Below, in pieces: positions 54,514-62,611 of a stretch of 64,000 nucleotides of DNA (positions are counted from its first letter, which is position 1; every line of letters starts with the position of its first letter). The notes under the pieces were generated by a model. The model was not told the origin of the DNA. It searched no databases and saw only the letters and a program-made list of their open reading frames with translations. A program made the position numbers and the translations under genes. The DNA comes from Allocoleopsis franciscana PCC 7113 (lineage in GTDB: Bacteria; Cyanobacteriota; Cyanobacteriia; Cyanobacteriales; Coleofasciculaceae), in NCBI RefSeq assembly GCF_000317515.1, contig NC_019738.1, forward strand, positions 2,313,623-2,377,622, written 5' to 3'.

Positions 54514-54855
54514 TTAACTGTGCGACAAACTCTCTAAACTTAAGGGAACCATATCTCCACTTGTTGTCAGCCCCAATAACATCCGCTCGTCCGGTCGAAT
54601 AAACTTGCCCGTGAGTACACAGCGTTCTTCTTGTTGGGCGACAGCCTCTATACTGGCTCGGATATCAGACAAGGAAAATTCGGGGCGATAATCACCGGAT
54701 TTCTGTTGCACATAGTTCCAGAGTACGTCTCGTATCAGAGCTTGATATCCCTGGTTGCCTGAGAGTTCTTTGAGCTTCTCTTTGAGTTCTCTCTCTAAAC
54801 GGATGCTAGTAACTTCCATGTCAGTGGTTGCTGTTCTGGTGAGTGTACGCATCAT
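54514..54855 (-). CDS. Ribbon-helix-helix-type DNA-binding protein
   Basis: 113 residues; the family-like part probably begins at the second Met (MEVTSIRLERELKEKLKELS, residue 13), with a CopG/Arc-type strand and two helices at 13-50. The C-terminal part (60-110) is of unknown type, with one Cys. It is conserved in cyanobacteria as a probable transcription factor. Whether it uses ATG 54855 or a later Met is unclear. No toxin gene is adjacent, so I do not call it an antitoxin. Confidence 0.65.
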   Translation of the reverse strand: MMRTLTRTATTDMEVTSIRLERELKEKLKELSGNQGYQALIRDVLWNYVQQKSGDYRPEFSLSDIRASIEAVAQQEERCVLTGKFIRPDERMLLGLTTSGDMVPLSLESLSHS

Positions 54856-55294
54856 CTTTTTTTCTCCAAAATATCTGGACAGGTTTGTAATACCAGTGTA
54901 GTATGTAAAAGTCAGCTTTCAAATCGATCTTTACCAATTCACCTTCTGTGAGCCTTCATATATCTCTTTCCACCCTATGCCCTGATGCTGCCGCCCTTCG
55001 AGGTTGGCACTCAGTGACATCACGGGTGGATTTTTGGTATGAGGGCAGGTATAGCTTGAGAGAAGAACATAAAGCAGAGATTGGCAATCAATTTAATAAA
55101 GACGCCGGGAATTTCCTGGGTGTCAATAGCGAAGCGGGACGCAATAGCGTCTTTCCACAACGAGATACCAGCCGGGGGAGGTACAGGCGAAGAAGCGCCG
55201 TACCAACATAGGACAGGAAGACTGTAAACGTTTTCACCTAACCCCCGCTCCTAAACCAAAAGAAGCGGGGGTTTTAACTATGAGGAGGCAAACC
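54856..55294. other. Intergenic region upstream of the HNH nuclease
   Basis: 439 bases. The plus-strand frame of 87 codons at 54948 has no family match and no clear ribosome-binding site, and ends before a hairpin, so I reject it. A hairpin AACCCCCGCT / AGCGGGGGTT (55240-55249 with 55264-55273) followed by TTTTAAC precedes the nuclease start. Confidence 0.45.
55240..55275 (+). terminator. Hairpin just upstream of the HNH gene
   Basis: 10-bp perfect stem with a 14-base loop and TTTT tail, 19 bases before the GTG start at 55295. Possible terminator or attenuator controlling the nuclease gene. Confidence 0.6.
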
Positions 55295-56434: not shown

Positions 56435-56464
56435 TTGACACTTTATGTAGTATTTATGTAGTAT
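56435..56464 (+). promoter_or_regulatory. Candidate promoter of the tRNA array
   Basis: Consensus -35 TTGACA at 56435-56440 and a TAGTAT -10 candidate at 56459-56464, 18 bases apart. The -10 lies inside a triple TATTTATGTAG repeat, so alternative -10 positions exist. It is about 500 bases before the first tRNA. Confidence 0.45.
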
Positions 56465-56967: not shown

Positions 56968-57040
56968 GGGACTGTAGCTCAGTGGTTAGAGCGTTCCCCT
57001 GTCGAGGGAAGGGTCGCCAGTTCAAATCTGGTCAGTCTCG
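56968..57040 (+). tRNA. tRNA-Asp(GTC)
   Basis: Acceptor GGGACTG / CAGTCTC (one G-U). Anticodon loop CTGTCGA. T-arm GCCAG-TTCAAAT-CTGGT. Discriminator G, no CCA. First array member; a different body from the second Asp tRNA at 57360. Confidence 0.9.
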
Positions 57041-57085
57041 CTCAACAGCAATTATGGAAGTTTCAATCTTCCTTTTCCCACACAT

Positions 57086-57158
57086 GGCCCCATCGTCTAG
57101 CGGTCAAGGATTTCTGAATTTCGATCAGAAGACACGGGTTCGAGTCCCGTTGGGGCTA
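57086..57158 (+). tRNA. tRNA-Glu(TTC)
   Basis: Acceptor GGCCCCA / TGGGGCT. Anticodon loop ATTTCGA (TTC). Glu-type D-arm (TCGTCTAGCGG). T-arm CGGG-TTCGAGT-CCCG. Discriminator A, no CCA. Confidence 0.88.
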
Positions 57159-57174
57159 TCAGATTGATGAACGA

Positions 57175-57248
57175 GGTCGAGTAGCCAAGTGGTTGAAGGC
57201 GTCAGTCTGCAAAACTGATACTCGTGGGTTCAAATCCCACCTCGACCT
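57175..57248 (+). tRNA. tRNA-Cys(GCA)
   Basis: Acceptor GGTCGAG / CTCGACC. Anticodon loop CTGCAAA, stem TCAGT/ACTGA. T-loop TTCAAAT. Discriminator T, as required for Cys identity. No CCA. Confidence 0.92.
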
Positions 57249-57274
57249 CTCAATCTGCACATCATCTGGTGCAT

Positions 57275-57347
57275 GGGAGTATAGCTCAACTGGCAGAGCA
57301 GACGGCTCTTAACCGTATGGTTGCAGGTTCGATCCCTGCTACTCCCA
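57275..57347 (+). tRNA. tRNA-Lys(CTT)
   Basis: Acceptor GGGAGTA / TACTCCC. Anticodon loop CTCTTAA; stem GACGG/CCGTA with one mismatch. T-arm GCAGG-TTCGATC-CCTGC. Discriminator A, no CCA. Body very similar to 57438. Confidence 0.88.
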
Positions 57348-57359
57348 CTCAGTACACAA

Positions 57360-57431
57360 GGCTCCATCGTCTAGTGGTTAGGACGCTGCTCTGTCGAAGC
57401 GGAGACAGGGGTTCAAATCCCCTTGGGGTCG
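57360..57431 (+). tRNA. tRNA-Asp(GTC) on a Glu-like body
   Basis: Acceptor GGCTCCA / TGGGGTC with G-U pairs. Anticodon loop CTGTCGA (GTC). The D-arm TCGTCTAGTGGTTAGGAC and the T-region match tRNA-Glu(CTC) at 57521 closely, so the aspartate anticodon sits on a glutamate-type scaffold. Discriminator G. Confidence 0.85.
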
Positions 57432-57437
57432 TTGTTT

Positions 57438-57509
57438 GGGAGTATAGCTCAGAGGTAGAGCAGTCCTCTCATAAGGGACTAGTCGCAGGTTCAAGTCCTG
57501 TTACTCCTA
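57438..57509 (+). tRNA. tRNA with CAT anticodon (Met elongator or Ile2)
   Basis: Acceptor GGGAGTA / TACTCCT (one G-U). Anticodon loop CTCATAA. Shares the D-arm and acceptor with the array tRNA-Lys(CTT). Discriminator A, no CCA. By sequence it could be methionine or, after lysidine modification, isoleucine; the body does not decide. Confidence 0.85.
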
Positions 57510-57520
57510 CTGACAAACAT

Positions 57521-57592
57521 AGCCTCATCGTCTAGTGGTTAGGACGCTGCCCCCTCAAGGCAGAGACAGGAGTTCAAATCTCCTTGGGGCTA
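57521..57592 (+). tRNA. tRNA-Glu(CTC), C33
   Basis: Acceptor AGCCTCA / TGGGGCT. Anticodon loop CCCTCAA, anticodon CTC. Position 33, nearly always U, is C here. Stem CTGCC/GGCAG. Discriminator A. Bacteria normally read GAG with tRNA-Glu(TTC) alone, so this is an extra isoacceptor. Confidence 0.8.
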
Positions 57593-57595
57593 TCT

Positions 57596-57681
57596 GGAGA
57601 GGTGGCTGAATTGGCTGAAAGCACTTCCCTGCTAAGGAAGCATGGGGTAACCCATTGCAGGTTCGACTCCTGTCCTCTCCG
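57596..57681 (+). tRNA. tRNA-Ser(GCT)
   Basis: Class II, 86 bases. Acceptor GGAGAGG / CCTCTCC. Anticodon loop CTGCTAA. Long variable arm with ATGGGGTAACCCAT stem. T-loop TTCGACT. Discriminator G. Confidence 0.94.
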
Positions 57682-57692
57682 CCTTTTTACTT

Positions 57693-57780
57693 GGGTCGGC
57701 CCGCCTATTAGCGTAGGCAACGGTCTGTAAAATCGCCGCGTCCGAAAGGCGCATTGCAGGTGCGACTCCTGCCCGACCCA
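57693..57780 (+). tRNA. tRNA-Tyr(GTA), degenerate
   Basis: Class II, 88 bases. Acceptor GGGTCGG / CCGACCC. Anticodon loop CTGTAAA. Long variable arm GCGTCCGAAAGGCGC. Position 8 is C and the T-loop is TGCGACT instead of TTCGACT, so it departs from consensus at conserved positions. Discriminator A. Confidence 0.82.
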
Positions 57781-57825
57781 TTGAATTTTGGATTTTAGAT
57801 TTTGGATTCAAAGTTCAAATCGGAT

Positions 57826-57900
57826 GTGGGGATAGTGTAACTGGCAACATCTCGATCTCCAAAATCGATGATCTGAGTTCAAATCTCAGTCCCCGCGCCA
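57826..57900 (+). tRNA. tRNA-Trp(CCA)
   Basis: Acceptor GTGGGGA / TCCCCGC (one G-U). Anticodon loop CTCCAAA. T-arm TGAG-TTCAAAT-CTCA. Discriminator G followed by encoded CCA (57898-57900). The 45-base spacer before it contains a GGATTTTAGATTTTGG-type repeat. Confidence 0.88.
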
Positions 57901-57906
57901 TTCAAT

Positions 57907-57981
57907 GAGAGCGTAGTTTAACTGGATAAAATATCGGTCTACGAAACCGAAGAGGTGGGGGTTCAAGTCCCTCCGCTCTCG
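57907..57981 (+). tRNA. tRNA-Arg(ACG)
   Basis: Acceptor GAGAGCG / CGCTCTC. Anticodon loop CTACGAA; A34 would need deamination to inosine. D-arm TAGTTTAACTGGATAAAAT is unusual in lacking the common GG pattern form. Discriminator G, no CCA. Confidence 0.88.
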
Positions 57982-57988
57982 TCAACTT

Positions 57989-58074
57989 GGAGAGGTGGCC
58001 GAGTGGCTTAAGGCGCAGACTTGGAAAGTCTGATTAGGTAAAACCTAACGCAGGTTCAAATCCTGTCCTCTCCG
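57989..58074 (+). tRNA. tRNA-Ser(GGA)
   Basis: Class II, 86 bases; same acceptor GGAGAGG / CCTCTCC as tRNA-Ser(GCT). Anticodon loop TTGGAAA. Long variable arm TTAGGTAAAACCTAA. Discriminator G. Confidence 0.93.
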
Positions 58075-58083
58075 TTGAAACTT

Positions 58084-58158
58084 CCCCCGGTAGCTCAGTT
58101 TGGTAAGAGCGCTTGACTGAAAATCAAGAGGTCGTCAGTTCGATACTGACCTGGGGGG
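58084..58158 (+). tRNA. tRNA-Phe(GAA)
   Basis: Acceptor CCCCCGG / CTGGGGG. Anticodon loop CTGAAAA, stem CTTGA/TCAAG. T-arm GTCAG-TTCGATA-CTGAC. Discriminator G, where bacterial Phe tRNAs normally have A; identity could be weak. Confidence 0.88.
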
Positions 58159-58165
58159 CTGTCGT

Positions 58166-58240
58166 TGCCTCATAGCTCAATGGTAGAGCCACGCGCTGTT
58201 AACGCGGGGGTTGTAGGTTCGAGTCCTACTGGGGCAGCCA
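58166..58240 (+). tRNA. tRNA-Asn(GTT)
   Basis: Acceptor TGCCTCA / TGGGGCA. Anticodon loop CTGTTAA. T-arm GTAGG-TTCGAGT-CCTAC. Discriminator G followed by encoded CCA. Confidence 0.92.
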
Positions 58241-58245
58241 TTTAT

Positions 58246-58320
58246 TGCTGGGTAGATGAATTGGTAAATCGAAGTGTAGCCAGCCAATTATAATAATAGG
58301 TTGAGTCCTGTACTTTGTTC
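58246..58320 (+). pseudogene. tRNA relic before the HNH gene
   Basis: GCTGGGTAGATGAATTGGTA resembles a tRNA 5' half, and ATAGG-TTGAGT-CCTGT is a T-arm with one base lost from the loop. The acceptor does not close, so it is a decayed tRNA, cut or displaced by the nuclease gene that starts at 58323. Confidence 0.5.
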
Positions 58321-58322
58321 CA

Positions 58323-59024
58323 ATGAAATACAGCAAAGAAGTTTTGGAAAAAGCTGTTAAACAGTCCTTCTCTGTAAGTGGGGTTTTAAGGAAACTTGGT
58401 ATCGCAGGTGGAGGAAGTCATGGTCACATAACTAGGCGTATTAAAGACTTGGGTATTGATACCTCTCACTTTAAAAAACAGGGCGAAAACTTGAAAGGGT
58501 TCAACCCCAAAAAGCCTTGGCAAGAAGTTTTGGTATTAAATTTGAGTAACAGAAGAAGGCCTGGCGTTCAACTGAGACAAGCCTTGTTAGAGATGGGGAA
58601 GGAGTATAAATGCGAAAATCCCCAATGTTCGATTCAAAGTGAGTGGTTAGGACGCAAGTTAGTTTTAGACGTTGACCACATAAATGGGAATTGGCAAGAT
58701 AACCGCCCAGAGAATCTAAGATTTCTCTGTCCTAACTGTCACAGACAAACTGCAACCTATGGGAATAAGCGCCAACAACTAGAAACAAAGAAGTACAGTT
58801 CGCACCCAAATAAAAAAGTTCCCCATCTGAAAGCCAGAAAAGTTGAGCGTCCTTCTAAGGATGAACTGGCGAAAATGATATGGGAAAAACCAACTACTCA
58901 TATAGCCAAGGATTTTGGTGTAAGTGGTAAGGCAATAGAAAAGTGGTGTAAAGCTTATGGCATCGAGAAACCTTCTAGAGGTTATTGGGCTAAAAAAAAT
59001 CAGTCTAAAACTTCTATGTTGTAG
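58323..59024 (+). CDS. HNH homing-type endonuclease inside the tRNA array
   Basis: 233 residues. A central zinc HNH site (CENPQC, VLDVDHINGNWQDNRPENLR, CPNCHRQ; residues about 98-145) carries the His-Asn-His catalytic set in the DHINGN...NL...CH pattern of phage and intron-type HNH enzymes. The N-terminal 50 residues and the C-terminal part (AKDFGVSGKAIEKWCKAYGI) look like two helix-turn-helix DNA-binding segments. It starts 3 bases after a tRNA relic and ends 16 bases before tRNA-Gln. Likely a free-standing nuclease that moves itself, and perhaps neighbouring tRNAs, between arrays. Confidence 0.88.
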   Translation: MKYSKEVLEKAVKQSFSVSGVLRKLGIAGGGSHGHITRRIKDLGIDTSHFKKQGENLKGFNPKKPWQEVLVLNLSNRRRPGVQLRQALLEMGKEYKCENPQCSIQSEWLGRKLVLDVDHINGNWQDNRPENLRFLCPNCHRQTATYGNKRQQLETKKYSSHPNKKVPHLKARKVERPSKDELAKMIWEKPTTHIAKDFGVSGKAIEKWCKAYGIEKPSRGYWAKKNQSKTSML

Positions 59025-59040
59025 GCTTAGCAAATTTCAT

Positions 59041-59115
59041 TGGGGAGTAGGCGACGTTGGCAAAGCCACCTGATTTTGGCTCAGGAAATCGCGGGTTCGA
59101 TTCCTGCCTCCCCAG
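59041..59115 (+). tRNA. tRNA-Gln(TTG)
   Basis: Acceptor TGGGGAG / CTCCCCA. Anticodon loop TTTTGGC. T-arm GCGGG-TTCGATT-CCTGC. Discriminator G. Confidence 0.9.
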
Positions 59116-59151
59116 TTCTGCTCTCTCGCTTTGATAGAGCAGCTAAGTAAT

Positions 59152-59225
59152 GCTCCTGTAGCCCAATCGGAAGAGGCAGCAAGCTTAAACCTTGCGCGTT
59201 GCTGGTTCAAGCCCAGCCAGGAGTA
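59152..59225 (+). tRNA. tRNA-Leu(TAA), short variable arm
   Basis: Acceptor GCTCCTG / CAGGAGT. Anticodon loop CTTAAAC (TAA). Only 74 bases: the variable region is five bases (GCGTT), so this leucine tRNA is class I and lacks the long arm of normal leucine tRNAs. T-arm GCTGG-TTCAAGC-CCAGC. Discriminator A, as for Leu. Confidence 0.85.
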
Positions 59226-59229
59226 CTAA

Positions 59230-59302
59230 CGGGATGTAATTCAGCGGCTAGAAGCCATGCTTTGGGAGCATGGAGTCGCAGGTTCAAATCCTGCCATCCC
59301 GA
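59230..59302 (+). tRNA. tRNA-Pro(TGG)
   Basis: Acceptor CGGGATG / CATCCCG (C1-G72 pair, typical of Pro). Anticodon loop TTTGGGA. T-loop TTCAAAT. Discriminator A. Confidence 0.93.
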
Positions 59303-59305
59303 TAT

Positions 59306-59379
59306 GCCCCTGTAGCCCAATCGGAAGAGGTGCCGCACTTAGAATGCGGAGGTTACTGGTTCAAGCCCAGTCAGGGGTA
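59306..59379 (+). tRNA. tRNA-Leu(TAG), short variable arm
   Basis: Acceptor GCCCCTG / CAGGGGT. Anticodon loop CTTAGAA (TAG). 74 bases with a 5-base variable region, same body as the array tRNA-Leu(TAA). Discriminator A. Non-canonical for leucine. Confidence 0.85.
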
Positions 59380-59388
59380 TTGGTGCGA

Positions 59389-59467
59389 TGCGGGTGAAGT
59401 AGCCACGGTAGGCTTGGAGGTCTCATAAGCCTCTTATCAGCAGGTTCGACTCCTGCCCCCGCCACCA
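59389..59467 (+). tRNA. tRNA-Met(CAT), possibly initiator-like
   Basis: Anticodon loop CTCATAA (CAT). Acceptor 1-7 TGCGGGT with CCCCGCC leaves 1-72 unpaired (T-C), a hallmark of initiator tRNA, although 7-66 is also mismatched. The three G-C pairs of the initiator anticodon stem are not complete (GAGGT/GCCTC). Encoded ACCA end. T-loop TTCGACT. Confidence 0.7.
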
Positions 59468-59471
59468 AAAT

Positions 59472-59543
59472 GCAGGCGTGGTGCAATGGCTAGCATAGGA
59501 GCGTCGTAACCTTCTGATGCGAGTTCAACTCTCGCCGCCTGCT
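59472..59543 (+). tRNA. tRNA-Thr(CGT)
   Basis: Acceptor GCAGGCG / CGCCTGC. Anticodon in GTCGTAA (CGT); stem AGGAG/CTTCT leaves a wide loop. T-arm GCGAG-TTCAACT-CTCGC. Discriminator T (usual Thr A), which questions charging. Confidence 0.8.
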
Positions 59544-59547
59544 TCGA

Positions 59548-59619
59548 GCAGATGTGGTGTAAGTGGCAACACAAGGGCATGGTAAGTCCTCGATGTGGGT
59601 TCGACCCCCGCCGCCTGCT
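59548..59619 (+). tRNA. tRNA-Thr(GGT)
   Basis: Acceptor GCAGATG / CGCCTGC with one mismatch. Anticodon loop ATGGTAA. T-loop TTCGACC. Discriminator T. Second of three adjacent Thr tRNAs with related bodies. Confidence 0.8.
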
Positions 59620-59630
59620 CCTTCAACCGT

Positions 59631-59701
59631 GCAGGTGTGATGTAACGGCAACATGAGGCTCTTGTAAAGCCTTCTTGCGAGTTCAAGTCTCGCCATCTGC
59701 T
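59631..59701 (+). tRNA. tRNA-Thr(TGT)
   Basis: Acceptor GCAGGTG / CATCTGC. Anticodon loop CTTGTAA, stem AGGCT/AGCCT. T-arm GCGAG-TTCAAGT-CTCGC. Discriminator T. Confidence 0.88.
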
Positions 59702-59747
59702 TGTGGCGATGCTAGAGGTCTTTTTTGGTAGTGGAGAGGAGGAAAAT

Positions 59748-60377
59748 ATGACAACCATGACGGTTACGGATGCTCTAGCAGAGTTGACGCTGTTGGAAAA
59801 GCGTATTGATTCAGCAAGAGTAGCTTTGGATAATAACACCTTAATTGCTGTTGTTGAAGTCGGCAAAGTGCCAACAGGCTTCAAATCTAGAGATGATCAT
59901 GCAGCACAAGCAAGAGCATCTTTGCAAAGGGTGGATGCTCTGATTGATCGCAGACGAGTCATCAAGAGAGCAATCGTTCTTTCTAATGCTTCGACGATGG
60001 TTTCTGTTGCAGGACAAGAGATGACAGTCGCAGAAGCCATTGAAATGAAGAGCTTCATCTCGTACTACAAAGAAGTTCTTGCCACGATTACCTCAGCTTA
60101 CTCTCGCACCTGCCAGGAGTACAAAGTTGCCCAAGCGCGAGTGAAGGAACGACTGGATAAACTGGCGATGGAAGTGTTAGGTAAGAATGCTTCTTCCGAG
60201 AAGTACGAGTCATTAGCCGATAGCTTCCTGGCACGCGAGGGAGTTGAGCTACTCGATCCAACTAACTTAGCAGAAGAAATTGCCAGACGAGTGACGTTTG
60301 TCGAACAGTTCGAGTCAACTTGCGATCGCGTTCTTTCAATTAGTAATGCGCGGACAATGATTGAAATTCCAGACTAA
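59748..60377 (+). CDS. Unrecognised helical protein inside the tRNA array
   Basis: 209 residues from ATG 59748; GGAGAGGAGG lies 6 bases upstream, so the frame back to 59703 is not used. Nearly all helix with long heptad-like stretches (LAELTLLEKRIDSARVAL, KRAIVLSNA, YKVAQARVKERLDKLAMEV), so probably a coiled-coil or bundle. No catalytic motif. The layout resembles small helical phage or DIP1984-like proteins, but I am not sure. Its place between two tRNAs suggests it was carried in with the array. Confidence 0.6.
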   Translation: MTTMTVTDALAELTLLEKRIDSARVALDNNTLIAVVEVGKVPTGFKSRDDHAAQARASLQRVDALIDRRRVIKRAIVLSNASTMVSVAGQEMTVAEAIEMKSFISYYKEVLATITSAYSRTCQEYKVAQARVKERLDKLAMEVLGKNASSEKYESLADSFLAREGVELLDPTNLAEEIARRVTFVEQFESTCDRVLSISNARTMIEIPD

Positions 60378-60421
60378 AATGGGCTTGCTGGTCACTCGAA
60401 AACCTCTAAATTTATGGTATT

Positions 60422-60497
60422 TGGTGGATAGCTCAATGGGTAGAGCGCATGACTTCCAATCATGAAGTTGTTGGTTCGAGTCCAACTCCATCAGCCA
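60422..60497 (+). tRNA. tRNA-Gly(TCC), first copy
   Basis: Acceptor TGGTGGA / TCCATCA (one G-U). Anticodon loop CTTCCAA, stem CATGA/TCATG. T-arm GTTGG-TTCGAGT-CCAAC. Discriminator G then encoded CCA. Gly tRNAs normally have T at 73. Confidence 0.88.
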
Positions 60498-60680
60498 TGA
60501 ATGTTAAAGCTTAAAGCTCAACGCTTAACGCTCAAACTTCAATCGTTAAAGATTAGACAGTTAACATTCAAACCATAAAGGTTAAAGCTCGATAAAATCC
60601 AGAGGTTCTGGTTGTAGGTTCCATAAAACCTTGAGGTTTCCACCTGGCTGAGTGGTCAGCATTCCACTTCTTTTAATCAA
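60498..60680. other. Repetitive spacer inside the array
   Basis: 183 bases of GTTAAAGCTC-like degenerate repeats, bounded at one end by an inverted pair TGAATGTTAA (60498-60507) and TTAACATTCA (60561-60570). Near 60641-60680, GGCTGAGTGGTCAGC and TTCTTTTAATC resemble the 5' half of a decayed tRNA. No coding frame. Confidence 0.45.
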
Positions 60681-60751
60681 GCGGATATGGTGTAACGCTA
60701 GCATCTGAGCCTTCCAAGCTTTAGGTACGAGTTCAAATCTCGTTGTCCGCT
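60681..60751 (+). tRNA. tRNA-Gly(TCC), second copy
   Basis: Acceptor GCGGATA / TGTCCGC. Anticodon loop CTTCCAA; anticodon stem GAGC/GCTT weakly paired. T-arm ACGAG-TTCAAAT-CTCGT. Discriminator T, as typical of Gly. Confidence 0.82.
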
Positions 60752-60761
60752 TTTGAAACTT

Positions 60762-60833
60762 GCGGGTGTGATGTAGTGGCTAGCATCTGAGTCTGCCAGT
60801 CTCAGCGCATGGGTTCAAGTCCCATCATCCGCT
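60762..60833 (+). tRNA. tRNA-Gly(GCC)
   Basis: Acceptor GCGGGTG / CATCCGC. Anticodon in CTGCCAG (GCC) with stem CTGAG/CTCAG. T-arm ATGGG-TTCAAGT-CCCAT. Discriminator T. Its body GCGGGTGTGATGTAG is close to the Thr(TGT) body GCAGGTGTGATGTAA. Confidence 0.85.
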
Positions 60834-60838
60834 TCCGT

Positions 60839-60914
60839 AGTCCTGTAGCTCAGTCGGGAGAGCGCCTCTCTTACAAAGAGGATGTCACAGGTTCAAACCC
60901 TGTCAGGACTACCA
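60839..60914 (+). tRNA. tRNA-Val(TAC)
   Basis: Acceptor AGTCCTG / CAGGACT. Anticodon loop CTTACAA, stem CCTCT/AGAGG. T-arm ACAGG-TTCAAAC-CCTGT. Discriminator A with encoded CCA. Confidence 0.94.
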
Positions 60915-60919
60915 ATCAT

Positions 60920-60993
60920 GGGAGTGTAACTCAACTGGATAGAGTACCAATCTTCTAAATTGGCTGCTGTAGGTTCAAGTCCTACCACTCCTG
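60920..60993 (+). tRNA. tRNA-Arg(TCT)
   Basis: Acceptor GGGAGTG / CACTCCT. Anticodon loop CTTCTAA, stem CCAAT/ATTGG. T-arm GTAGG-TTCAAGT-CCTAC. Discriminator G. Confidence 0.93.
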
Positions 60994-61091
60994 TTAAACA
61001 TAAAATAAAAGGAGGTTGCCTTCTTCTGATATTAATTGAACAGGATAGTGCGATCGTACCTTATTCTCCACCTAATTGATAGGTAAATAGT

Positions 61092-61547
61092 ATGACAATT
61101 TACTTTTACAGCACTCGCGAAAAACCCTACGGCTGTTTTTCCAACTTTTCACAGCATGGTTTTGAGCTTGATGGAGCTTGGTGGGCGACTAGCGAGCATT
61201 ACTTTCAAGCACAGAAATTTATCGATACTGATCGCCCTTGGTTCGACAAAATCCGGGAGGTAAAAACGCCGAAAGAAGCAGCAAAGATGGGACGCGATCG
61301 CTCTCACCCCCTGCGTGGTGATTGGGAACAGGTCAAAGATGAAATTATGCAGCAAGCCGTGTTGCAGAAATTTAAAACTCATGCTGATATTCGCGAGATA
61401 CTTCTTGCTACAGGCGATGAAGTAATTGTTGAAAATTCTCCCATTGATTACTACTGGGGGTGCGGTAAAGATGGTAGCGGAAAAAATAGACTGGGAGAGA
61501 TTTTAATGGCAGTGCGAGAAATCCTGCGTCAACAACAAAATCGCTAA
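61092..61547 (+). CDS. NADAR-domain protein (YbiA family)
   Basis: 151 residues, the whole length is the NADAR domain: YSTREKPYGCFSNFSQHGF, TSEHYFQAQKF, GRDRSHPLRGDW, and the C-terminal YYWGCGKDGSGKNRLGEILM. Family members hydrolyse N-glycosidic bonds of riboflavin intermediates, and some remove ADP-ribose from guanine bases as antidotes to ADP-ribosylating toxins. Here it sits alone between two tRNA genes of the array with its own gap on each side (98 and 33 bases). A link to nucleic-acid modification or defence is an inference from location. Confidence 0.9.
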   Translation: MTIYFYSTREKPYGCFSNFSQHGFELDGAWWATSEHYFQAQKFIDTDRPWFDKIREVKTPKEAAKMGRDRSHPLRGDWEQVKDEIMQQAVLQKFKTHADIREILLATGDEVIVENSPIDYYWGCGKDGSGKNRLGEILMAVREILRQQQNR

Positions 61548-61580
61548 AGATTTCGATTCAACTGTTATTCACTAAAACAT

Positions 61581-61653
61581 GGGTCTGTAGTTCCAATGGG
61601 AGAACGCTTCTCTTGCAAAGAAGAGGTTGTGGGTTCGACCCCCACCAGATCCA
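61581..61653 (+). tRNA. tRNA-Ala(TGC)
   Basis: Acceptor GGGTCTG / CAGATCC. Anticodon loop CTTGCAA, stem CTTCT/AGAAG. T-arm GTGGG-TTCGACC-CCCAC. Discriminator A. The usual Ala identity pair G3-U70 is present (G3 opposite T70). Confidence 0.92.
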
Positions 61654-61658
61654 CTTAC

Positions 61659-61734
61659 GGTGTCTGAAGCCAAAGCGGTCGCGGCGCTGGTTTGTGGAAC
61701 CAGTCATTAGCGGGTTCGAGGCCCGTCAGACACC
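61659..61734 (+). tRNA. tRNA-His(GTG)
   Basis: Eight-bp acceptor GGTGTCTG / CAGACACC, that is, an encoded G-1 opposite C73, the histidine identity element. Anticodon loop TTGTGGA, stem CTGGT/ACCAG. T-arm CGGG-TTCGAGG-CCCG. Confidence 0.93.
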
Positions 61735-61739
61735 CTCAA

Positions 61740-61826
61740 GGAAGGTGCCGCCGAGTGGACGGCAAGCAGTCTTGAAAACTGTGGTACGGCAGCGATGTCG
61801 TAAGGGTTCGAGTCCTTCATCTTCCT
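61740..61826 (+). tRNA. tRNA-Ser(TGA)
   Basis: Class II, 87 bases. Acceptor GGAAGGT / ATCTTCC. Anticodon loop CTTGAAA. Long variable arm. T-stem one mismatch. It is followed directly by a run of eight T, which may end the transcript. Confidence 0.88.
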
Positions 61827-61834
61827 TTTTTTTA
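61826..61834 (+). terminator. T-run after tRNA-Ser(TGA)
   Basis: Eight to nine T immediately after the Ser acceptor stem. The acceptor hairpin plus T-run could act as a terminator; the opposite-strand LAGLIDADG gene ends here as well. Confidence 0.4.
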
Positions 61835-62251
61835 CATTTTGACTTTCGTAGAGTTTTTGAAAAATTCAATTTCAACTTGACGTATCTTTTCCAAAATCTC
61901 TGGAGTGTAATAACCATTTTTTGGCAATAGATTTGGATAGTTTTCTATAATTAGACGCGCTCTTCTTGCTTTTTCTTTTTCTTTCAAATAGGGTGCCAGT
62001 AATTTAAGCACTTTTAACGCACCTTGGCGACCAATCTTCCAATGATAAGCTTCGCTGTGTTTTTCTTTGGCTTTCTGAGCTATACAAACCGAGCCGCCAA
62101 AGTGATCTTTCATAAACATGACAAGTTCAATAGATGTGCTACTCATGGTTAGATATGGTGCCCTTTGTCCGCCTTTATTAGTACGAATGAGGCAAATACT
62201 TCCTTCCCCATCCATTAATCCGGCTGCATAAGCCAGTATGGTTTTGTCCAT
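61832..62251 (-). CDS. LAGLIDADG-type homing endonuclease, opposite strand in the array
   Basis: 139 residues, one LAGLIDADG motif: YAAGLMDGEGSICLIR at about 8-23, the last Glu/Gly giving the catalytic acid. A single-motif protein acts as a homodimer. The middle part (SVCIAQKAKEKHSEAYHWKIG) fits the DNA-binding saddle. It is the only array-internal gene on the minus strand, lying between tRNA-Ser and tRNA-Ile. No intron or intein context is present, so it is free-standing. Likely a selfish element or an agent for the spread of the array. Confidence 0.9.
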   Translation of the reverse strand: MDKTILAYAAGLMDGEGSICLIRTNKGGQRAPYLTMSSTSIELVMFMKDHFGGSVCIAQKAKEKHSEAYHWKIGRQGALKVLKLLAPYLKEKEKARRARLIIENYPNLLPKNGYYTPEILEKIRQVEIEFFKNSTKVKM

Positions 62252-62288
62252 GAAAATACTTGGAAGTAGTAAAGATTAACTGTTATGA

Positions 62289-62360
62289 CCACTGGAGGCT
62301 GAAAAGTGAAGCACCGTGCTGATAACGCGGCGATAGAAGGGGCAGTACCTTCCCAGTGGA
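62289..62360 (+). tRNA. tRNA-Ile(GAT), aberrant T-loop
   Basis: Acceptor CCACTGG / CCAGTGG, perfect. Anticodon loop CTGATAA, stem CCGTG/CGCGG. T-stem GAAGG/CCTTC closes GGCAGTA instead of the normal TTCRANY loop. D-arm short. Discriminator A. Shape is preserved but the T-loop is degenerate. Confidence 0.72.
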
Positions 62361-62363
62361 TTT

Positions 62364-62433
62364 CCCTTACCTGCCGGATGCAGACCTGTTTTTCCTAAAG
62401 ACGGTGTGCCAGGTTCAACTCCTGGGTAAGGGG
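62364..62433 (+). tRNA. tRNA-Arg(CCT)
   Basis: Acceptor CCCTTAC / GTAAGGG. Anticodon loop TTCCTAA with T-A/G-C/T-G pairs. T-arm CCAGG-TTCAACT-CCTGG. Discriminator G. 70 bases. Confidence 0.82.
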
Positions 62434-62436
62434 TCA

Positions 62437-62510
62437 TTCCTCGATCGCACAATCGCAGAACACTCATTTATTAACCGCAGGGTTCCTGTATCAAATCCAG
62501 GTCGAGGAGT
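62437..62510 (+). pseudogene. tRNA relic (Asn-like)
   Basis: Acceptor TTCCTCG / CGAGGAG pairs well and a T-loop ATCAAAT is seen, but the anticodon stem does not pair and the D-arm is eroded. The loop region TTATTAA would give anticodon ATT. Probably a decayed tRNA. Confidence 0.5.
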
Positions 62511-62520
62511 TCATATAAAT

Positions 62521-62592
62521 GGGGATGTAGCTCGATGGCAGAGCAATCGGCTTTTAACCGATTGGGTGTGGGTTCGAGTCCCACCATCCCCA
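62521..62592 (+). tRNA. tRNA-Lys(TTT)
   Basis: Acceptor GGGGATG / CATCCCC. Anticodon loop CTTTTAA, stem ATCGG/CCGAT. T-arm GTGGG-TTCGAGT-CCCAC. Discriminator A. Last array member. Confidence 0.95.
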
Positions 62593-62611
62593 CTAATTCA
62601 CCCATTCCTTG

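Follow-up and report, generated by a model that had tools for sequence, protein, structure and literature searches.

The window (the whole stretch of DNA analysed here, 64,000 nucleotides) lies on a 7.47 Mb contig in an 8.0 Mb genome, and it holds a long tRNA array with HNH, NADAR and other ORFs lying between the tRNA genes (Table 1). Its tRNA sequences, relatives, and promoter motifs mark the genome as probably cyanobacterial. Of the 32 tRNA genes that ARAGORN calls in the window, 31 belong to the array, and Rfam reports 28 tRNAs above threshold. A genome-wide search returned 66 tRNA matches, and those read outside the array form a housekeeping set, including one tRNA-Asp (L021) and one tRNA-Glu (L037). 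Here, we will distinguish between the first tRNA-Asp(GUC) of the array (Asp1) and a second one (Asp2), which is our main subject. Asp1, Asp2, and the array tRNA-Glu(CTC) are each called as tRNAs by both ARAGORN and Rfam, the latter scoring Asp2 at 60.4 bits.

Table 1. Features of the tRNA array, its upstream region, and related loci in other genomes
Feature	Position	Strand	Remarks
113-aa ORF, probable orthologue of trcR	54514..54855	-	Promoter motif, gene order, Leu at 45 (44 from second Met)
17/18 match to TrcR autoregulatory motif ATACTACACTTGTATTAC	54887..54904	-	Upstream of the 113-aa ORF; holds a third TGTAGTAT copy (54897)
Promoter-like site ahead of the array, TTGACA-18-TAGTAT	56435..56464	+	Layout recurs upstream of relatives' arrays
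TGTAGTAT, two copies	56446-56453, 56457-56464	+	Sequence reported as TrcR site of the Anabaena trn promoter
tRNA array of 31 ARAGORN genes, interspersed with HNH, NADAR, and other ORFs	56968..62593	+	
Asp1, ordinary-bodied tRNA-Asp(GUC)	56968..57040	+	G73, G2-U71, loop CUGUCGA
tRNA-Glu(UUC) of the array	57086..57158	+	A73
tRNA-Lys(CUU) of the array	57275-57348		
Asp2, tRNA-Asp(GUC) on a tRNA-Glu-derived body	57360..57431	+	G73, G1-C72, G2-U71, loop CUGUCGA, variable region AGAC
tRNA-Met(CAU) of the array	57438-57510		
tRNA-Glu(CUC), Glu(CTC) in the text, closest paralogue of Asp2	57521..57592	+	A73, A1-U72, C at position 33
tRNA-Tyr-like gene (GTA)	57690-57782		Between Ser(GCU) and Trp
ORFs inside the array: HNH-type protein and NADAR-domain protein	58323-59024, 61092-61547		
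Insert-bearing loci	L072 (G171), L172 (G388), L173 (G397), L174 (G395), L175 (G404), L177 (G389); L257 (G701), L258 (G599)		
tRNA-Asp(GUC), Rheinheimera lutimaris	L075:6557-6962		Four tandem genes
tRNA-Asp(GUC), Legionella MAG	L104:1280-1355		One gene

A sequence-only reading of this stretch had described Asp2 as sharing its D-arm and T-region with Glu(CTC) and not with Asp1, and both the description and the coordinates proved correct. The D arm, GTCTAGTGGTTAGGAC, is identical in Asp2 and Glu(CTC) (16/16), as opposed to GCTCAGTGGTTAGAGC in Asp1, and the variable region is AGAC (4 bases) in both versus GGGTC (5 bases) in Asp1. The T arms of Asp2 and Glu(CTC) differ at 2/17 bases, which make up one compensated pair, and Asp1 has a different T stem. 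Compared position by position, Asp2 is nearer to Glu(CTC), with 58/72 positions identical versus 42/72 for Asp1. Using the ARAGORN gene ends, the identity of Asp2 and Glu(CTC) is 0.79, the highest among the 477 cross-isotype pairs in the window (mean 0.55, sd 0.05); chance resemblance between tRNAs is therefore ruled out as an explanation.

The bases at which Asp2 departs from Glu(CTC) are as informative as those it shares. Nine of the 14 differences fall at sites where Asp1 and Glu(CTC) also differ, and at eight of these nine (positions 1, 5, 33, 34, 37, 71, 72, and 73) Asp2 has the Asp1 state (binomial P of 0.001 if the chance of a match is 1/3, and 0.02 if it is 1/2). Five of the remaining six differences are located in stems, where 31-39 and 52-62 are compensated and position 42 forms a U-G pair with 28; position 4 of Asp2 has a third base, again making a U-G pair. 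In a class-wide sample, tRNA-Glu has A73, G1-U72, and a four-base variable region with A46 in 28/28 cases, and tRNA-Asp has G73, G1-C72, and a five-base variable region in 29/29. The anticodon loop, CUGUCGA, is the same in Asp2 and Asp1 here, and it is CUGUCAC in the Asp2 of the relative G388. Asp2 thus has Asp-type ends on a Glu core: Glu-like sequence runs from the 5' positions of the acceptor through the D arm and anticodon stem to the variable region and T arm, and only the loop and acceptor end are Asp-like. A plain one-base switch of the anticodon is ruled out by these co-changed sites.

In the arrays of G388 (same genus) and G171 (same family), Asp2 has orthologues at the matching position, flanked by Lys(CTT) and Met(CAT), and the gene is present in 3/20 family genomes, the source genome included. 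It is absent from the readable Lys-to-Met stretch in four other family arrays (G397, G395, G404, and G389); in G405 the slot is a run of N, and in G396 Lys is followed by Arg. A pattern running from the D arm to the anticodon, applied to 388 genomes of the order, found Asp2 in the same three genomes, along with two matches that are not tRNAs (G500 and G604), and no tRNA-Asp from another slot fitted it. This pattern together with a D-arm scan revealed no Glu-bodied Asp gene in other array slots. The scan requires U33, and hence does not list Glu(CTC) with its C33; four spurious matches with a GTTTCCA loop (G388, G404, G391, and G401) were dropped. A stricter pattern applied to 388 genomes of the class matched Asp2 in the source genome only, among genomes that do not include G388 and with a D loop in G171 that does not fit. 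The three orthologues differ by compensated pairs at 49-65 and 52-62, and all keep GUC, U33, G10, G1-C72, and G73. All stems pair in the two copies without an insert (this genome and G388); the G171 copy has an insert in its T loop and may be dead.

Outside of arrays, the best Asp2 matches across the 388 genomes of the class fall on housekeeping tRNA-Glu(TTC) genes, at 28/28 such loci examined. A maximum likelihood tree of 19 tRNAs groups the Asp2 rows beside Glu(CTC) (support 87/86) and gives the six ordinary Asp rows a group of their own (97/98). A tree that keeps every Asp row on the same side of a branch is not rejected by an AU test (p 0.35), and therefore 72 bases alone do not prove descent, which the maximum likelihood tree nonetheless supports. 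The anticodon switching within the array that had been proposed from the sequence stands insofar as Asp2 clusters with Glu(CTC) tRNAs of the array, and falls short in that more than the anticodon has changed. Pairwise ranking, class-genome matches, and tree agree that the closest relatives of Asp2 are not ordinary tRNA-Asp genes, and Asp2 appears to have descended from a glutamate tRNA. Distant searches among plasmids and phages yielded only short matches, mostly of tRNA length.

GluRS is a class I synthetase and AspRS a class II synthetase; a change from glutamate to aspartate therefore crosses the synthetase classes. The AspRS identity set printed in PMC6523644 for Escherichia coli comprises GUC, G73, G2:C71, C38, and G10. 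Asp2 has G34 U35 C36, G73, and G10, and like Asp1 it has G2-U71 and A38 in place of C71 and C38, though these are E. coli rules and may not be those of this AspRS; the G388 orthologue has the whole list, including G2-C71 and C38. For GluRS, the set as printed in PMC9976931 and PMC6523644 is U34, U35, C36, A37, U11-A24, U13-G22:A46, and the lack of base 47, with G1-C72 a weak element; the former, a review, lists U34 and A37 among the strong Glu determinants. Asp2 retains the core of this set (U11-A24, U13-G22:A46, and no base 47) and lacks U34 (or the C34 of the CUC isoacceptor) and A37, having G34 and G37; the G388 orthologue has G34 but A37. The genome has one GluRS-family match and one AspRS above the cut-off, with no second GluRS-family match that might represent GluQ-RS as another route to Glu; the single match, without a second GlnRS-like one, suggests a non-discriminating GluRS. 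Since G73, G1-C72, and positions 33, 34, and 37 are in the Asp1 state, aspartylation is the best reading of Asp2 and the most likely one given that the main AspRS determinants are in place, and some weak recognition by GluRS is possible given the retained core. PMC6523644 reports that Glu-tRNA-Glu is formed in vitro by four bacterial AspRSs, with neither Asp-tRNA-Glu nor Glu-tRNA-Asp among the products, a sign that the Asp and Glu systems lie close together and that predicting charging from rules is uncertain.

The sequence upstream of the array resembles that of the trn operon of Anabaena PCC 7120, which is repressed by TrcR and induced by translation-inhibitor stress, and in which TGTAGTAT overlaps the -10 and is protected by TrcR, as described in PMC10272220. 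In both genomes there is a long tRNA array with TGTAGTAT over a TAGTAT -10, and by this likeness a predicted TrcR site would lie over the -10 of the array here. Three copies of TGTAGTAT are found in the window versus 1.06 expected by chance, and therefore the octamer alone is weak support; it is its recurrence in the same TTGAC context in relatives that counts. When 16 array loci were scanned, TTGAC followed by TGTAGTAT was seen in the source array and in nine others (G397, G395, G405, G391, G396, G399, G398, G400, and G401). The upstream sequence of G171 also has TTGAC-TGTAGTAT, and G388 has the octamer pair at a nearly equal distance from Asp1. There was no match at G404, G389, or G392 (the latter two on short contigs), and at G390 the context is different.

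The 113-aa ORF has no Pfam match, and so we infer its trcR label from the features listed in Table 1, which make it a probable trcR. HNH and hypothetical ORFs come after it divergently, in the order of Anabaena all0854 / asr0855 / alr0856 / alr0857 as named in a table of PMC10272220, and the divergent trcR / HNH / hypothetical gene order is thus common to both genomes. The array and the trcR-like gene are neighbours on the 7.47 Mb contig here, whereas the Anabaena PCC 7120 array is on a plasmid according to the same source, which also places the RNA ligase gene rtcB in the TrcR regulon.

The observed similarity, synteny, co-changed sites, and conservation lead us to a reading to which we give a probability of roughly three in four: Asp2 would be an alloacceptor-remolded tRNA, most likely aspartylated, that serves as the second tRNA-Asp of a trn operon kept silent by a TrcR-type repressor until stress induces it. 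In a common ancestor of the source genus and the genus of G171, duplication of an array tRNA-Glu gene, most like Glu(CUC), would have placed a copy between Lys(CUU) and Met(CAU). Point changes, or else conversion from Asp1, would then have given this copy the anticodon loop of a tRNA-Asp, which it would have gained along with G73 and G1-C72. The product would be aspartylated by the single AspRS of the genome and would read GAU/GAC as aspartate, its normally silent operon and the stress induction being those expected of a TrcR-type system. The closest relative of Asp2 outside its orthologues is of another isotype (the array Glu(CTC)) and the anticodon is GUC in 3/3 orthologues, as expected of remolding; G73, G1-C72, and the compensated pairs lend indirect support to its being functional as a tRNA-Asp. 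Counting against this reading are the retained GluRS core, the lack of C71 and C38 here, A37 in G388, the AU result, the interrupted G171 copy, and the predicted fold of the unmodified RNA described below.

An unlikely alternative, though the one among several to be taken most seriously, is that Asp2 is decaying or non-functional, either a redundant array tRNA becoming a pseudogene or one useful only when uncharged, for example as a decoy for an anticodon nuclease. The T-loop insert in the G171 orthologue would fit this, as would the array tRNAs of relatives, several of which are interrupted likewise. The predicted fold of unmodified Asp2 also lacks a standard anticodon arm, having instead a shifted hairpin in which the anticodon is paired (-28.0 vs -22.1 kcal/mol for the standard cloverleaf), although part of this energy gap lies in the D stem and is found likewise in Glu(CTC). 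Against decay, the gene is intact in both genomes of the genus, the stem changes are compensated, and the anticodon and G73 are unchanged. The least probable of the readings considered here takes Asp2 for an ordinary tRNA-Asp that came to resemble the Glu gene in its D arm and variable region, either by convergence or through conversion by that gene. The AU result leaves room for it and gene conversion within arrays is plausible, but the Glu-like part spans nearly the whole body, with just the loop and acceptor end Asp-like, and the pattern and D-arm searches brought up no Glu-bodied Asp gene in other array slots.

The sequence-only reading had also raised the prospect that a body still seen by GluRS would leave Asp2 wholly or partly glutamylated and give Glu at Asp codons, perhaps as stress-induced mistranslation, and this we regard as improbable. 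Every printed core GluRS determinant is retained, U35 and C36 are common to the Glu and Asp anticodons, and a non-discriminating GluRS, if that is what the lone family match represents, would be in keeping with it. Against it are the strong determinants at 34 and (here) 37, both of which are gone, position 34 being G rather than U or C, the Asp-type loop, and the discriminator and end pair, which are in the Asp state in 3/3 orthologues. A variant that we consider slightly more doubtful again has Asp2, with its complete GluRS core and AspRS ends, charged by both synthetases; the cell would then induce the array during translational stress as a regulated form of mistranslation, with some Glu put at Asp codons on purpose.

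Anticodon shifts are already a known kind of change, and Asp2 would be a further case of alloacceptor remolding. As in the examples set out in PMC4783518 and PMC3923123, a duplicated gene would have taken the anticodon of another isotype and has stayed nearest to its old family; some of the known shifts also carry matching changes at identity positions, as Asp2 does. Remolding is described mainly in mitochondria and eukaryote nuclei, PMC3923123 reports only four shifts in 61 Enterobacteriaceae, and Asp2 is in a cyanobacterial array. It further differs from known remolding in that the change takes a class I tRNA over to a synthetase of class II and in that the parental Glu gene is kept. No printed case of Glu to Asp remolding in a cyanobacterial array was found in the open-licence literature searched. 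Asp2 would be a bacterial tRNA whose amino-acid identity has changed in the course of descent, with the gene from which it probably started still next to it and orthologues in relatives, and it offers a natural experiment on which bases turn a glutamate tRNA (class I synthetase) into an aspartate tRNA (class II). Redundancy in a silent stress operon is a possible reason why such tRNA changes survive.

A wide pattern matched 46 + 21 stretches, and ARAGORN read all 67, giving 68 tRNAs, 34 of which have a four-base variable region. Among these 67 stretches, a neighbouring tRNA-Glu with at least 97% identity was present at two loci only, in Rheinheimera lutimaris (L075) and a Legionella MAG (L104), and most of the remaining matches seem to come from lineages or phages in which the tRNA-Asp has a similar D arm and nothing more. 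In R. lutimaris, four tRNA-Asp(GUC) genes of identical sequence stand in tandem, each with a tRNA-Glu body that is almost unchanged, and the single Legionella gene differs only at base 34 from the neighbouring tRNA-Glu(UUC); ordinary tRNA-Asp genes are found elsewhere in both genomes. Like Asp2, these genes combine a GUC anticodon with a tRNA-Glu sequence and lie near true tRNA-Glu genes, but their bodies are nearly unchanged (1-2 differences) and the Glu genes already have G73, whereas in Asp2 the discriminator has co-changed and the copies have diverged. L075 and L104 are better test cases than Asp2 for mischarging by GluRS.

Twelve array tRNAs in six relatives contain a double-hairpin insert of 23-26 bases (A-CCC-TTC-GGG-AAC-GC..GC-GAA), always at the same site in the T loop, between T54 and C56 and with base 55 replaced; two more raw matches (G388 and G398) were set aside because they do not match a T arm. 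By the same scan, the source array has no T-loop insert. The commonest form occurs as 17 exact copies in nine family genomes in a whole-genome search, eight of them in these T loops, and several of the copies outside tRNAs sit in hairpin loops. With T-stem flanks, the insert was found nine times in 376 genomes of the order, twice outside the family and 9/9 times in tRNAs of long arrays, a confinement that holds among T arms, which the flanked pattern favours, and does not speak to absence elsewhere. We take these inserts to resemble the small dispersed repeats of cyanobacteria, and either a mobile element or an insert that is excised would fit them.

Three tRNA genes of the array deserve further mention. 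The tRNA-Met(CAU) is close to the tRNA-Lys(CUU), the two being second among the 477 cross-isotype pairs, and it is possibly a second case of remolding or a tRNA-Ile(CAU). Position 33 of Glu(CUC) is C in place of the near-universal U, and it is also C in G388, G171, G395, and G397, and U in G404. The tRNA-Tyr-like gene has an odd D arm and is not called by ARAGORN; the Ser(GCU)-Trp slot in which it is located holds Tyr in several relatives.
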